A DNA stretch of 64,000 nucleotides from Streptomyces clavuligerus (GTDB lineage Bacteria; Actinomycetota; Actinomycetes; Streptomycetales; Streptomycetaceae): assembly GCF_005519465.1 (NCBI RefSeq), contig NZ_CP027858.1:3348001-3412000 (forward strand). The letters run 5' to 3'. Position numbers and translations under genes: made by a program. A model generated the notes under the pieces. The model was not told the DNA's origin and did not search any database. It saw nothing but the letters and a program-made list of their open reading frames with translations. This document shows, piece after piece, positions 3,150-55,707 of the stretch (positions are counted from its first letter, which is position 1; each line of letters opens with the position of its first letter).

Positions 3150-3184
3150 CCCTCGCGATGTTTCACGTGAAACATCGCGAGGGT
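3149..3184. terminator. parS: 36-bp perfect palindrome with parS site 3 at its centre
   Basis: The arms are exactly complementary around TGTTTCACGTGAAACA at 3159-3174. The last base is the final base of the MFS gene's stop codon on the minus strand, so the hairpin sits immediately after that gene. As with the cca-side palindrome, it could act as both a terminator and a ParB site. Confidence 0.7.
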
Positions 3185-4461
3185 CAGCGGACTCCGCCCG
3201 TCCGTCGCCAGTGGTTCAGGGTCAGGGCGATCCCCGCATAGATCAGCGCCACCAGAGCGACCAGCTCCACCGACCTGCCGTCGGAGGGGAGGAGTAGCGC
3301 CGCGATGGCGGCGGCGCCGACGAAGGCGACATTGAACAGGACGTCGTAGAGGGAGAAGACCCGCCCCCGGTAGGCGTCGTCCACCGAGGTCTGGACGACG
3401 GTGTCGGTGGTGATCTTCGACCCTTGCGTGATGAACCCCAGAACGAAGGCAGCGACCAGGGTCGGGGCCGGAGCAAAGGGCAGTCCCAGGGCCGGTACGA
3501 GTACGGCTGCCGCAGTGGCACAGAGCACCAACCAGCCGGGGCGTCCCAGACGGCCGACGGCCCAGGGGGTCAGAACGGCGGCGGCGAAGAAACCGGCACC
3601 GGAGACCGCGACGGCCAGACCCAGCAGGGCGAGCCCGTCCTCCTCGTTCTCGTACCAGGCGTAGCGGCAGAGCATCAGGACCATGACGGTCAAGGCTCCG
3701 TAGTTGAAGCGCATCAGCGTCATCGAGGCCAGTACCCGCGCCGCCACCGGGTGCTCCGCCAGATGTCGGACCCCGCCCGCCAGGCCGCGGGCGGTGGAGG
3801 CGATGGCGGCGCCCAGGCCCGGTTGCGAGCCGCCGAGGTCGGGCCCCAGCAGCTCACGGGCCATGCGCAGGGACGCCAGGGCCGAACAGAGATAGAGGGC
3901 GGCGCCGAGCAGCACCACGGCGGCGTCGGAGTGTCCGGCGTCGCCGGAGATCAGCCGCACCACGAAGGCGAGCCCGCCACCCGCGGTCGCGGCCAGGGTC
4001 CCGGCGGTCGGGGAGAGGGAGTTCGCGACGACGAGACGCTCCTCGTCGACGACCCGGGGCAGTGCCGCGGAGAGTCCGGCCAGGACGAAGCGATTGACCG
4101 CGGTCACCGTGAGGGCCGAGGCGTAGAAGAGCCAGTCGGGCACGGAGGCAAGGATCAGGACGGCGGTTCCGCCCGCGAGCGCGGCCCGTAGCAGGCCCCC
4201 ATAGAGAAGGACCTGTCGTCGCTGCCAGCGGTCGAGCAGAACACCGGCGAACGGGCCGACCAGGGAGTAGGGCAGCAGTAGTACGGCCATGGCGGAGGCG
4301 ATGGCCGCCGGTGAGGTCTGCTTCTCCGGGGAGAACACCACATAGGTGGCGAGGGCGACCTGGTAGACGCCATCGGCCGACTGGGAGAGCAGCCTCACCG
4401 TCAGCAGTCGGCGGAAGCCGGTCAGACGCAGCAGAGCGCGAAGATCACTGACGACGGGCAT
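3184..4461 (-). CDS. MFS transporter
   Basis: A predicted inner-membrane secondary transporter of about 425 residues with around 12 hydrophobic segments. The cytoplasmic loop after the second segment reads GVLLDRWQRRQVLL, the usual MFS loop 2-3 pattern (GxLxDRxxRR). A second such loop (AVGRLGRPGWLVL) follows in the C-terminal half. The substrate is unknown; drug or metabolite efflux is the usual guess for this type. I chose the ATG at 4461 (MPVVSDLRALLRL) over an upstream one at 4524, because the extra 21 residues are not hydrophobic and look like leader. The gene converges on cca with three parS sites between the stop codons. Confidence 0.85.
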   Translation of the reverse strand: MPVVSDLRALLRLTGFRRLLTVRLLSQSADGVYQVALATYVVFSPEKQTSPAAIASAMAVLLLPYSLVGPFAGVLLDRWQRRQVLLYGGLLRAALAGGTAVLILASVPDWLFYASALTVTAVNRFVLAGLSAALPRVVDEERLVVANSLSPTAGTLAATAGGGLAFVVRLISGDAGHSDAAVVLLGAALYLCSALASLRMARELLGPDLGGSQPGLGAAIASTARGLAGGVRHLAEHPVAARVLASMTLMRFNYGALTVMVLMLCRYAWYENEEDGLALLGLAVAVSGAGFFAAAVLTPWAVGRLGRPGWLVLCATAAAVLVPALGLPFAPAPTLVAAFVLGFITQGSKITTDTVVQTSVDDAYRGRVFSLYDVLFNVAFVGAAAIAALLLPSDGRSVELVALVALIYAGIALTLNHWRRTGGVR

Positions 4462-4483
4462 GCGGTCAAGCGTCACATACGCG

Positions 4484-4516
4484 GAGGGCCCCCAGGGCGA
4501 TGACCCGGGGACCCTC
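4484..4516. terminator. imperfect GC hairpin upstream of the MFS gene / after ino1
   Basis: A stem of gagggcccccaggg pairs with cccggggaccctc around a short loop, 124 bp after the ino1 stop codon in the direction of ino1 transcription. It may end the padR-ino1 transcript before the MFS gene. The imperfect stem keeps confidence modest. Confidence 0.45.
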
Positions 4517-4639
4517 TCTGGCACAGCAGCCGATGACCGGACTCAGATCTTGGCAGTTCCGGCCGTCCGGACCGGGGCGGCCGTCATCGCCGCACGCTCA
4601 TCGACGACCGAGGAGCGTACGGGAACCGGCCTCGGTGGC

Positions 4640-5772: not shown

Positions 5773-6492
5773 TCAGTTGACGGGTCCGTCGGACGTATCC
5801 GGCGGGGTGGCGGGCCCGGAGGAGGTTCCTCCGGGGGACGCGTCACCCCTGTCCCGGGGCAGGCCGCCCGACGGCCCGGTTCTGTCGTCCTGCTGAGCGG
5901 AGCCGTCGGAGGGGGACCGCCGTTGGTCCCGCCCCGCCCGCTCGCTCTCGATGAGCTCGTTCAGCCAGCGCACCTCGCGCTCCACCGACTCCATGCCGTG
6001 GCGCTGTAGCTCCAGCGTGTAGCCGTCCACGCGCTCCCGGGTGCGGGCCAGTGAGGCCCGCATCTTCTCCAGGCGCTCCTCCAGCCGGCTGCGGCGGCCC
6101 TCCAGGACCCGCATCCGCACCTCGCGCTCCGTCTGTCCGAAGAAGGCGAAGCGGGCGGCGAAGTGCTCGTCCTCCCAGCTGTCCGGCCCGGTGTGGGCGA
6201 GGAGCTCCTCGAAGCGCTCCTTGCCGTCCGGCGTCAACCGGTAGACGATCTTGGCGCGGCGCCCTGCGAGTGAAGCGGACAGGGCTTCCTCGGGAGCGCT
6301 GCCCGTCTCTTCGATCAGCCAGCCGTTGGCGACCAGCATCTTGAGGCAGGGGTAGAGCGTCCCGTAGCTGAACGCTCGAAAGATCCCCAGTGAGGTATTG
6401 AGCCGTTTCCGCAGCTCATACCCGTGCATCGGAGCCTCACGGAGCAGGCCGAGTACGGCGAACTCAAGGATGCCCGAGCGTCTGCTCACCAT
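5773..6492 (-). CDS. PadR family transcriptional regulator
   Basis: A DNA-binding repressor. Residues 1-95 form the PadR winged helix, seen in the run [20 protein letters not shown] and the later [17 protein letters not shown]. Residues of about 120-190 are charged and helical ([23 protein letters not shown]), the usual dimerisation helix. The last 50 residues are a polar Pro/Gly/Ser tail of no evident function. The 239-residue length suits the longer PadR subclass. A 31-bp near-perfect inverted repeat 33 bp upstream of the start is the likely operator, implying autoregulation and, through the operon, control of ino1. The ligand is unknown. Confidence 0.9.
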
Positions 6493-53928: not shown

Positions 53929-54057
53929 TTAGGCGGGCAGATGAAGTGCTTCCAGTTCTCGCGCGATCCCCGAGGCGATGATTCCCAGGGTGATGGCCCA
54001 CAGCGAGAAGATCACCAGAGCGCTCGCTATGGGGTGCTTGGGCTTTCGGGATCGCAC
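53929..54057 (-). CDS. 42-residue single-helix membrane protein
   Basis: A very small protein, VRSRKPKHPIASALVIFSLWAITLG, followed by a short charged end (ARELEALHLPA). One hydrophobic helix (ALVIFSLWAITLGIIASGI) with a basic N-terminus predicts an inner-membrane protein. AAAGGA lies six bases before the GTG. It overlaps the 3' end of the 55-residue gene upstream by 31 bp in another frame, so the two are probably translated together. No family is recognised. Expression needs proof. Confidence 0.55.
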   Translation of the reverse strand: MRSRKPKHPIASALVIFSLWAITLGIIASGIARELEALHLPA

Positions 54058-54194
54058 GGAAATCCTTTCGAATCCGGTGAGGGCGCGTCCTGGGGCGGCG
54101 GGCTCGGCTTGAGCGGGCAGTCTTTCTTGGGGCATTCGCAGGGGCCGAAGTCGAAGGGGTTGAACTCCAGGTCAAAGCGATAGGGCTGACTCAT
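54027..54194 (-). CDS. 55-residue cysteine-containing small protein
   Basis: A 55-residue protein with an aromatic, acidic N-terminus (MSQPYRFDLEFNPFDF) and cysteines at 19, 21, 26 and 47 in a C-x-C-x4-C pattern. A Pro/Ser-rich end follows. No signal peptide. GGAGG lies six bases before the ATG at 54194, good support for a real start. The cysteine set could bind a metal. It is divergent from the XRE regulator, with the membrane protein gene overlapping its end. No homologue family is recognised. Confidence 0.6.
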   Translation of the reverse strand: MSQPYRFDLEFNPFDFGPCECPKKDCPLKPSPPPQDAPSPDSKGFPCDPESPSTP

Positions 54195-54368
54195 CGCCAA
54201 CCTCCGGTGAGGGTATTGATCATGGGGGTGTTGCCTGTCCGGGGGGCCGTTGCCGCCACCGCTGGATGCGATGGGCGGCCGGAGTTTCGGGCGCCTGGGA
54301 GAAAGCCCTCGGACGGGCGGTTTCGATGCGTCACCAGGTGAGCACAACTATGGCTGAGGTCACACCAG

Positions 54369-54386
54369 TTGAGGGTGATTCCTCAA
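54369..54386. promoter_or_regulatory. putative operator in the XRE upstream region
   Basis: TTGAGG and CCTCAA are exact 6-bp arms around GTGATT. It lies between the divergent small-protein and XRE genes, 55 bp before the XRE start, so it could control either. The sequence here is less GC-rich than its surroundings. Confidence 0.4.
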
Positions 54387-54440
54387 TATTCGCTCCCGTG
54401 TTCGAGAGCGTCTGGAACCCCAAACCAGGAGGTCAAAGCC

Positions 54441-55259
54441 ATGCAAGACGACGATCTCTCGTATTCTTTGAGTCCGCTTGAGACATTCGGGATTGACGTC
54501 AGAAGCATGCGGACGGGCCGCAAGATCACCTTGGACGCCCTGGGGAAGGCCGTCGGATATTCGGCGGCCTATGTCTCCAAGGTCGAGCGGGCGCTGCTTG
54601 TTCCCAGTGAGCGGTTCGCGGTGGGGTGCGATCGGGCGTTCGGAACGGGAACGATGCTCGCCCGGCAGCGCGTTCGCGCGGTGGAGGGGGACGATCCCAC
54701 GTGGTTCGAGCCGTACACCGAGCAGGAACGCAAGGCCGTTCGGATTCTCAACTACTCGACGTTATTTGTGCCGGGGCTGTTCCAGACGCCGGAGTACGCC
54801 CGTGCGGTGTATCGGGCGAGTGTGCCACGGCTCACGGCGGCCGCCATCGAAGCCCGATTGGTTGCCCGAATGCGCCGCCATGAAGTGCTGGAACGGGAGA
54901 ACCCTCCCGAGCTGTGGGTGGTCCTCTACGAGGCGTGCCTGCGTACGTGCGTGGGCTCCCGGGAGGTGATGGCCGCCCAGCTCGACCGTCTGCTCCAGGA
55001 GGCGGAGGCGCCGAACGTCACCCTTCAGCTCGTCCCCTCCGATGTGGTCCCGGCGTCCAGCGCTGCCTTTACGTTGCTGGTCTTCGACGGCTCACATACC
55101 GTGCTGCATGTCGAAGGGCCGCAGGGAGGCCGCCCGTTGGAGACGCCGAGGATAGTGAAGAGGGCATTGGCGATCTTTGATCGTCTGCGGGCGGAGGCCC
55201 TGGGGCATGATGCATCTGTCGCCCGCATTCGAGAGATTCACAAGGAGTACGCGCCATGA
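54441..55259 (+). CDS. XRE-family regulator with DUF5753 domain
   Basis: A 272-residue protein. Residues of about 17-70 are a helix-turn-helix (MRTGRKITLDALGKAVGYSAAYVSKVERALLVPSERF). The rest is the DUF5753 ligand-type domain starting WFEPYTEQERKAVRILNYSTLFVPGLFQTPEYARAVY. Such regulators are abundant in Streptomyces and usually stand next to DUF397 genes. AGGAGG at 54427-54432 fixes the ATG at 54441. Codon 108 is the rare TTA (54762-54764), so its translation should depend on the bldA tRNA. Its stop overlaps the DUF397 start by 4 bp (ATGA). Confidence 0.93.
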   Translation: MQDDDLSYSLSPLETFGIDVRSMRTGRKITLDALGKAVGYSAAYVSKVERALLVPSERFAVGCDRAFGTGTMLARQRVRAVEGDDPTWFEPYTEQERKAVRILNYSTLFVPGLFQTPEYARAVYRASVPRLTAAAIEARLVARMRRHEVLERENPPELWVVLYEACLRTCVGSREVMAAQLDRLLQEAEAPNVTLQLVPSDVVPASSAAFTLLVFDGSHTVLHVEGPQGGRPLETPRIVKRALAIFDRLRAEALGHDASVARIREIHKEYAP

Positions 55260-55471
55260 CTTCCGAGTTCGACGCGAAGACCGCTGAGTGGGTCAAGAGC
55301 AGCCACAGTGGCCCCGAGGGTGGCGAATGCGTGGAGTGGGCGCCGTCGTACGCGTCCGCGCACGGTGTCGTCCCCGTCCGTGACAGCAAGCAGAGCGACG
55401 GTCCTGTCCTGATGGTGTCCGCCGCCGCCTTCACCGGGCTGGTGACCATAGCCCGGGGAGTTGAGCAGTAG
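55256..55471 (+). CDS. DUF397 protein (copy 1)
   Basis: A 71-residue protein of the DUF397 family: WVKSSHSGPEGGECVEWAP, VVPVRDSKQSDGPVLMVSAAAFTGLV. These small proteins are partners of the XRE/DUF5753 regulators. In studied pairs the two interact and affect development and antibiotics. Its start overlaps the regulator's stop, so they are coupled. See copy 2 for the duplication. Confidence 0.92.
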   Translation: MTSEFDAKTAEWVKSSHSGPEGGECVEWAPSYASAHGVVPVRDSKQSDGPVLMVSAAAFTGLVTIARGVEQ

Positions 55472-55488
55472 CGAGTAAGGAGTGCGCC

Positions 55489-55707
55489 ATGGCCTCTGAG
55501 TTCGACCCGAGGATCGCTGTATGGGTCAAGAGCACCCACAGCGGACCCGATGGGGGTGAGTGCGTGGAGTGGGCGCCGTCGTACGCGTCCGTACACGGTG
55601 TCGTCCCCGTCCGTGACAGCAAGCGGAGTGATGGGCCCGTTCTCATGGTGTCCGCCGCCGCGTTCACCGGGCTGGTGACCATAGCCCGGGGGCCGATCTG
55701 TAGGTGA
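55489..55707 (+). CDS. DUF397 protein (copy 2)
   Basis: A 72-residue paralogue about 87% identical to copy 1 over 68 residues, starting 17 bp after it, with AAGGAG before its ATG. The two differ mainly near the N-terminus (DAKTAEW versus DPRIAVW) and at the last residues. This is a recent tandem duplication in the same operon. It is followed by a strong terminator. Confidence 0.92.
   Translation: MASEFDPRIAVWVKSTHSGPDGGECVEWAPSYASVHGVVPVRDSKRSDGPVLMVSAAAFTGLVTIARGPICR

Follow-up and report, generated by a model that had tools for sequence, protein, structure and literature searches.

What do two very small, overlapping genes do when they are read divergently from a regulator of the WhiJ/BldB type? 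Most Streptomyces carry many such loci, which are involved in development and in the production of antibiotics; to our knowledge, little has been established about the genes they act on directly or about how they might connect to the cell surface. The question is raised by a stretch of 64,000 nucleotides (the window) of Streptomyces clavuligerus, an industrial organism and producer of clavulanic acid. The window comprises positions 3348001-3412000 of contig 1, and the genome searched measures 8.54 Mb in two contigs. A preliminary description had placed the genes of a 55-amino-acid (55-aa) cysteine (Cys) protein and a 42-aa membrane protein divergent from an XRE/DUF5753 gene and two DUF397 genes, and all of these are present according to the open reading frames (ORFs) and Pfam. 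Its further details also agreed with what we observed: the C-x-C-x4-C set consists of C19, C21 and C26, the GGAGG lies six bases 5' of the ATG, the membrane (transmembrane, TM) gene opens with a GTG located 31 nt short of where the Cys stop codon ends, so that the two genes overlap, and neither small protein matched any family in Pfam, NCBIfam, PADLOC or PHROGs. On balance we favour the view that the pair is a cassette under XRE control whose Cys protein is tethered to the membrane, and that XRE-type regulators use it as their common output.

Both small genes belong to families that are repeated within the genome. Searching with the 55-aa protein gave at least 16 matches at E ≤ 1.3e-5, and searching with alignment A1 (17 of the 21 copies) gave at least 21 Cys copies at E ≤ 1e-3, with the window copy included in both counts. 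The genome searches scored a limited number of candidates per genome, for example 15, 16, 18 or 32, so copies may be missed. N12, P18, C19, C21, P22 and C26 are kept in 17 of 17 rows of A1 and the core reads N-P-F-D-F-G-P-C-x-C-P-x-x-D-C-x-L-K. The window-like copies (class A) have the core NPxDFGPCxCPxxDCxLK, and class B carries an extra C-terminal DSPxLxxLRxRxxxDxxRRxxFGxxGR-like stretch. Many of the other Cys copies are preceded by GGAGG or GGAGA. The window-type TM family has at least 17 copies, again counting that of the window. Thirteen of these come after a class-A Cys gene and four, at 1738310, 4995283, 1233123 and 2705429 (seen as sequence only), are without an intact Cys gene. A hydropathy rule found a small one-helix ORF after 18 of the 21 Cys genes compared to 12.2% for positions picked at random within the same loci, and most such ORFs overlap or adjoin their Cys gene. 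Read by eye, the three Cys genes without a TM call showed a less hydrophobic candidate (locus L014), an apparent deletion fusing the Cys frame to the TM tail (L019) and a degenerate frame (L118). Decayed cassettes were encountered as a second copy in L018, in L026 and in L019. Across 12 aligned TM copies Ala32 is invariant, the residue two before it is G or A, and the tail is conserved except in L009; the TM partners of class B (L022, L025, L027) stop directly after the helix.

Judged from the differences between copies, both small ORFs vary as coding sequence. Pairwise differences peak at the third codon position in the Cys core (0.14/0.13/0.36 for positions 1 to 3) and in the TM gene (0.27/0.12/0.43). 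The ratio of nonsynonymous to synonymous differences (pN/pS) was 0.27 for the Cys core (19 codons, 13 of 21 copies), a value that is biased downwards because the core was cut out by a motif pattern. For the TM gene it was 0.44 (last 30 codons, 11 of 17 copies); L009 was dropped on account of its shifted C-terminus, and the calculation also left out L010 and the four TM genes that lack an intact Cys gene. When 18 oriented copies were compared all against all by blastn, the alignment of two copies with the same Cys subtype typically began 12-36 bases upstream of the Cys start and ended at +231..+285, near the TM stop; copies of different subtype share shorter pieces. Longer matches connect L016 with L018 (-73 to +541) and L011 with L021 (back to -424); L011 and L012 have a further block in common (about +287 to +698), and L013 matches the decayed upstream copy in L018 over 413 bp. 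We rejected the duplication of whole segments as the only cause, since the similarity of many copies ends near the TM stop and the adjoining DUF5753 XREs are 26-39% identical between the groups described below. Separate from the cassette, an interspersed DNA repeat of ~300 bp occurs near several TM genes, namely in L009 (+268..+571 from the Cys start, and also inverted) and at or near L012, L016, L017, L018, L019 and L021.

The cassette, intact or decayed, occupies 24 loci in S. clavuligerus and a regulator was found beside it at 24 of 24, where the call at L117 rests on a helix-turn-helix (HTH) match below the cut-off. A DUF5753 regulator is read divergently from ten of the 21 Cys genes and from L026, where a TM gene is accompanied by a Cys remnant. 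At the remaining 13 loci a regulator-like gene is divergent in eight cases and upstream on the same strand in five. Ten of these 13 were scanned with Pfam and eight showed an XRE-type HTH match (for L017 below the cut-off only). The regulators of L009 and L015, which are without such a match, belong to the NsdA family by NCBIfam (413 and 430 bits, cut-off 75), as does that of L017 (280 bits), and each of the three faces its cassette. HTH_31 was found above the cut-off at L116 (44.6 bits, genome search), marginally at L118 (27.1 and 22.2 bits in two scans, cut-off 27) and below the cut-off in both scans at L117 (23.9 and 21.3 bits). An HTH_31 match lies within 1.6 kb at 22 of the 24 loci, compared to 1.06 expected, and the other two loci face NsdA-family regulators; within 700 bp the corresponding numbers are 15 of 24 and 0.53. 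The genome holds at least 110 HTH_31 matches at E ≤ 0.01, some of them below the cut-off, with the best 150 of 479 candidates scored, and the random expectation may be somewhat low. The binomial p-value of 4e-28 overstates independence because the copies are related. The partner regulators are of the DUF5753 (WhiJ-like), NsdA-family and other XRE types, and co-duplication alone therefore does not explain the linkage.

To see what the intergenic regions have in common, the DUF5753 XREs were divided into group I (L010, L011, L018 and L021; 45-58% identity), group II (window, L016 and L026; 56-69% identity) and the singletons L013, L025 and L027; the identity matrix left out L119. Comparison of the window with L016 gave the 29-bp pattern TTGTGnTCAnCTGGTnACGCAnCGAAACC. 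With as many as 3 mismatches allowed, it has three sites in the genome, all of them exact, and the reversed-pattern control has none. Each site lies beside a group II XRE with a cassette or its remnant, and the third, at L026, was not used in the derivation. In the window the site is separated by 124 bp from the Cys start and by 93 bp from the XRE start, and when the group II sequences are aligned the block is better conserved than its flanks. From group I we read the inverted repeat GTAGCGATTYCGCTACCGA. Its four best genome sites (0, 0, 1 and 2 mismatches) are on the cassette side, upstream of the four group I XREs, and the L018 site was not used in the derivation. Two more matches appear at three mismatches; one overlaps the L021 site and the other lies elsewhere. 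Each XRE group is found with each of the two Cys subtypes, and thus cassette and regulator have probably recombined. It had been suggested that the XRE/DUF397 unit controls the small pair or is controlled by it. The regulatory link gains from the subgroup-specific blocks and from the regulator found at every locus, and on sequence grounds it is fairly supported; XRE binding, the direction of control, a physical complex, metal binding and any brake on development or metabolism are things we infer, as is the function of the Cys/TM pair.

The closest precedent that has been tested comes from S. venezuelae: WhiJ9 binds to direct repeats between divergent genes, and it is required for iosA to be activated once BldB is lost (PMC10294661, the portion available). 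By this precedent we propose that the window XRE, tuned by the DUF397 proteins, controls the divergent cassette. The Cys and TM genes would form one translationally coupled unit. The WhiJ-type XRE would bind at 54319-54347 and set the transcription of the cassette and probably its own too, with the DUF397 partners modulating it as has been proposed for WhiJ/BldB-type loci. The 42-aa helix, made from the overlapping frame, would hold the Cys protein at the membrane, and the Cys protein is probably metal- or thiol-active by way of C-x-C-x4-C. Different regulators, each with a sensor domain of its own, may then turn on separate copies of one common membrane-bound product. The roughly two dozen copies, each beside a regulator, suggest an output or sensor part shared by many switches. 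In its fuller form, with a single two-gene, membrane-tethered cassette as the common output of XRE-type regulators from at least three sensor classes (DUF5753, NsdA-family TPR and other XRE), the proposal is more tentative, and we hold it as possible without giving it an even chance. Our best reading makes the cassette a third component, and a new one, of WhiJ/BldB-type loci. All three types of protein known from whiJ-like clusters are predicted to be cytoplasmic, as far as the accessible text of PMC4255298 goes, and a membrane partner would therefore be new there.

Several observations weigh against this account. The intergenic blocks could be similarity left over from duplication. The reversed control of GTAGCGATTYCGCTACCGA gave four matches at up to 3 mismatches compared to six for the pattern itself, so that the number of matches proves nothing alone and the case rests on the positions of the best sites. 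The block found here does not clearly correspond to CGXXCTCAAC, the consensus of the WhiJ9 repeats. At L018 the XRE lies ~1.4 kb from the cassette with other ORFs in between. Five of the 24 cassettes are located downstream of their regulator on the same strand, and hence a shared divergent operator cannot act there. The AlphaFold model of the Cys protein has a predicted local distance difference test (pLDDT) score of 64.2 and no secondary structure, which gives no confident fold. Finally, the TM family was found in one of 392 genomes of the genus, our own, and in none of the 391 others.

The same arrangement could carry information in the opposite direction. The TM and Cys proteins would then act together as a sensor in the membrane, retaining the neighbouring XRE or letting it go in the manner of a membrane-bound anti-regulator. 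This would suit partner regulators that differ in their sensor domain and mostly share the HTH, and it would supply the membrane link that is missing from the whiJ-type clusters, whose proteins are all predicted to be cytoplasmic (PMC4255298, as above); the overlap of the Cys and TM genes favours a complex. However, specific binding to a partner predicts a Cys protein that varies with its XRE, whereas the Cys core barely varies between XRE groups as dissimilar as those above, and we regard a role as input as unlikely. The preliminary description had also mentioned a toxin-like module. In such a selfish or toxin-antitoxin cassette the hydrophobic peptide would be toxic at the membrane, the Cys protein would act as the antidote, and the XREs would have been captured as repressors. 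Many copies, some of them decayed, and a small hydrophobic TM product are what one would expect, and XRE-DUF397 pairs have been proposed as type II toxin-antitoxin systems in the available parts of PMC7159879 and PMC10364602. Yet four of the 17 TM genes (sequence only) have no intact Cys gene, although a toxin should not occur without its antidote; the small proteins had no PADLOC match; and the DUF397 protein Scr2 was not deleterious on overexpression in S. coelicolor (PMC6262351, in part). We found no positive evidence for this suggestion, a toxin role of the cassette is weakly supported, and we consider it quite improbable.

A pathway for ribosomally synthesized and post-translationally modified peptides (RiPPs), with the Cys peptide as precursor or accessory, appears to us just as improbable. 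It would explain the gene that follows the TM gene in L021 (3334-4503), which resembles the methyltransferase of graspetide systems TIGR04188 (ATP-grasp peptide maturase; 297 bits, cut-off 380), the same type downstream of a Cys relative in another genome (L112, 290.8 bits), and the radical SAM/SPASM gene (Pfam) downstream on the same strand in L106 (6121-7176). Some graspetide groups are moreover reported to co-occur with DUF397/DUF5753 in the text at hand of PMC13097080. Among the eight ORFs around the window cassette, however, Pfam found no peptide-modifying family, the Cys core is conserved instead of variable, and the sole match to a RiPP family was NF041705 (E 0.001, 19.1 bits, cut-off 36) in one of 16 members. 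The 42-aa product could also be an exported signal, cut after the invariant Ala (G/A-x-A) to release a tail of about ten residues ([ED]LxxLxLPA-like) as a pheromone for the neighbouring regulator. The invariant Ala32, the G or A two residues before it and the conserved tail would fit, as would the TPR-like NsdA-family partners of some copies, a receptor with HTH and TPR domains being the trait of RRNPP systems; the window XRE itself carries DUF5753. But the tail is much alike across regulator classes and thus offers no specificity, the class-B partners end directly after the helix, and the hydrophobic stretch is long enough for an anchor. We consider a peptide signal very improbable. The preferred reading remains the regulated, membrane-tethered output.

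The idea that the small genes recur beside XRE-DUF397 pairs held inside the S. clavuligerus genome; in other genomes Cys relatives were detected and the TM gene was not found. Among 101 genomes of the bacterial family the TM family was again limited to our own. The class-A Cys alignment matched two of 395 relatives, namely the genome itself and one weak match. With the class-B alignment 85 of 392 genomes matched at E ≤ 0.1, many weakly and probably by chance, and 20 other genomes matched at E ≤ 1e-3. We judged one locus for each of these 20. At 11 an XRE-like ORF is divergent (for L081 called only at E 8e-4) and nine are without one within 1.5 kb. Four of the 11 (L079, L083, L086 and L092) match in the C-terminal stretch only and have no Cys motif, and several others show the variant motif PCxCG...CPD. 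A scan of genome contigs with alignment A2 gave three loci. The matches in Crocinitomix and Owenweeksia span 14 residues only and were taken as chance; the third, L054 of S. uncialis, is likely a relative by its sequence, with a Cys gene divergent from an XRE gene and three DUF397 genes behind. A TM-like ORF follows eight of the 18 Cys relatives entered from other genomes. Outside the species the second gene often belongs to a different type, an example being the DUF7848 protein of L095. When wider stretches were read, L105 showed an NsdA-like ORF (by eye) together with a DUF397 gene, and nothing was recognised at L106, L107 and L108. In L106 a short peptide ORF (5925-6116) lies directly before the radical SAM gene, and in L110, from another Streptomyces, a radical SAM gene (3866-4522, by eye) lies downstream of the Cys relative. 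Taken at the level of sequence, a small protein gene of this sort divergent from XRE-DUF397 is a theme wider than the species, and the TM partner and the expansion in copy number look lineage-specific within the sensitivity of searches with short proteins.

Viral contigs searched with the TM and Cys alignments yielded 73 and 15 pattern matches, respectively, and no relatives. A tblastn with the 55-aa protein against plasmids and phages found none, though copies on pSCL4 exist; this search is therefore insensitive to such short proteins or omits the kin of this genome. The PDB sequence search with A1 had no result. One pSCL4 copy (L103, NZ_CP016560.1 185612-185818) has its Cys gene annotated as a hypothetical protein, and the TM gene after it is absent from the PLSDB gene table, which is known to be incomplete. 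The locus L025, on the second contig, is 100% identical to S. clavuligerus plasmids in 15 of 15 records that matched. A transcript study of S. clavuligerus (PMC8269248) names seven intergenic transcripts that potentially encode small proteins.

The features of the window locus are collected in Table 1. With an XRE-type HTH, DUF5753 and adjoining DUF397 genes (Pfam) the locus has the traits of the WhiJ/BldB type. The regulator scored 35.4 bits for HTH_31 and 173.3 bits for DUF5753, its AlphaFold model has a pLDDT of 86.4, and the DUF5753 part of the model matches chains of the phospholipase D fold. Both DUF397 genes match PF04149 (66.9 and 63.7 bits). The eight ORFs scanned with Pfam between 51 and 58 kb gave an ABC transporter, a HAD hydrolase, a seryl-tRNA synthetase or no match. 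An AbaA-like ATPase, a frequent though not universal trait of WhiJ/BldB-type loci, was not among these eight, and the three minus-strand ORFs adjoining the cassette had no Pfam match.

Table 1. Features of the cassette locus in window coordinates
Feature	Position	Strand	Basis
55-aa Cys protein gene	54027..54194	-	ORF, ATG 54194, stop ends 54027; paralogues
C-x-C-x4-C codons (C19, C21, C26)	54117..54140	-	ORF translation and A1 alignment
GGAGG ribosome-binding site of the Cys gene	54201..54205	-	six bases 5' of ATG
42-aa single-helix membrane (TM) gene, GTG start 54057	53929..54057	-	ORF; paralogues
GAAAGG, likely ribosome-binding site of the TM gene, within the Cys gene	54064..54069	-	sequence
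Candidate XRE operator TTGTGnTCAnCTGGTnACGCAnCGAAACC, divergent intergenic region	54319..54347	-	3 genome sites, reversed-pattern control 0
XRE regulator, HTH_31 and DUF5753 (WhiJ-type), 272 aa	54441..55259	+	Pfam; AlphaFold model
DUF397 protein 1 (BldB-like), overlaps XRE stop	55256..55471	+	Pfam
DUF397 protein 2	55489..55707	+	Pfam

Other small genes were observed around the copies. A family of ~105 aa (WxFTLHLQxPLT...FPGVLVRSVELD, by eye) occurs near L015, L018, L019, L021, L026, L116 and L117, and its L019 member matched neither Pfam nor NCBIfam. Some TM genes are followed by a third small gene (MIRIYDCVVPERVIVVARVAFTVFAN...), namely in L013, L018 (2833-3024) and L026 (3339-3530); the L018 copy had no Pfam match. 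Directly upstream of the Cys gene in L017 lies a DUF7848 gene (3151-3336, 34.2 bits), a family also seen at L095.

Comparison with described systems helps to place the cassette. It shares the XRE/DUF5753 regulator and the DUF397 partners with the WhiJ-BldB(DUF397)-AbaA/IosA loci (PMC10294661 and PMC4255298, both in part). As proposed here, it would also resemble WhiJ9-iosA (PMC10294661) in having a further gene under the control of the regulator through the intergenic region between them. In the available text of these papers the third component is an AbaA-like ATPase or IosA (15 kDa, predicted cytoplasmic), whereas here it is a Cys protein with a membrane helix. Unlike those loci, the cassette also adjoins NsdA-family and other XRE regulators. 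The NsdA family (NF053720) consists of TPR-like regulators; these are faced by the cassettes L009, L015 and L017, while the window regulator has HTH_31 and DUF5753 instead. The Scr1/Scr2 pair (SCO4441/SCO4442) has the same XRE and DUF397 families but was studied as an antibiotic activator and not as the controller of a divergent pair of small genes, and the part of PMC6262351 at hand mentions no Cys/TM cassette. Graspetide clusters with DUF397/DUF5753 (PMC13097080, partial text) likewise place small peptide genes beside XRE-DUF397, and L021 has the TIGR04188-like methyltransferase; the window cassette differs in that no peptide-modifying enzyme adjoins it among the eight ORFs scanned. In the accessible portions of the open-licence literature on such loci, neither the Cys nor the TM gene is named.

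The small genes may represent an annotation gap, as the pSCL4 copy illustrates with its hypothetical Cys gene and the TM gene missing from the incomplete PLSDB table. A small target repeated beside each regulator, together with a candidate operator, makes the question of what these regulators control testable in a producer of clavulanic acid. If the reading is true, no membrane component of WhiJ/BldB-type loci would have been described before this cassette, as far as the literature was searched, and many inputs would here converge on a single effector that has been duplicated.

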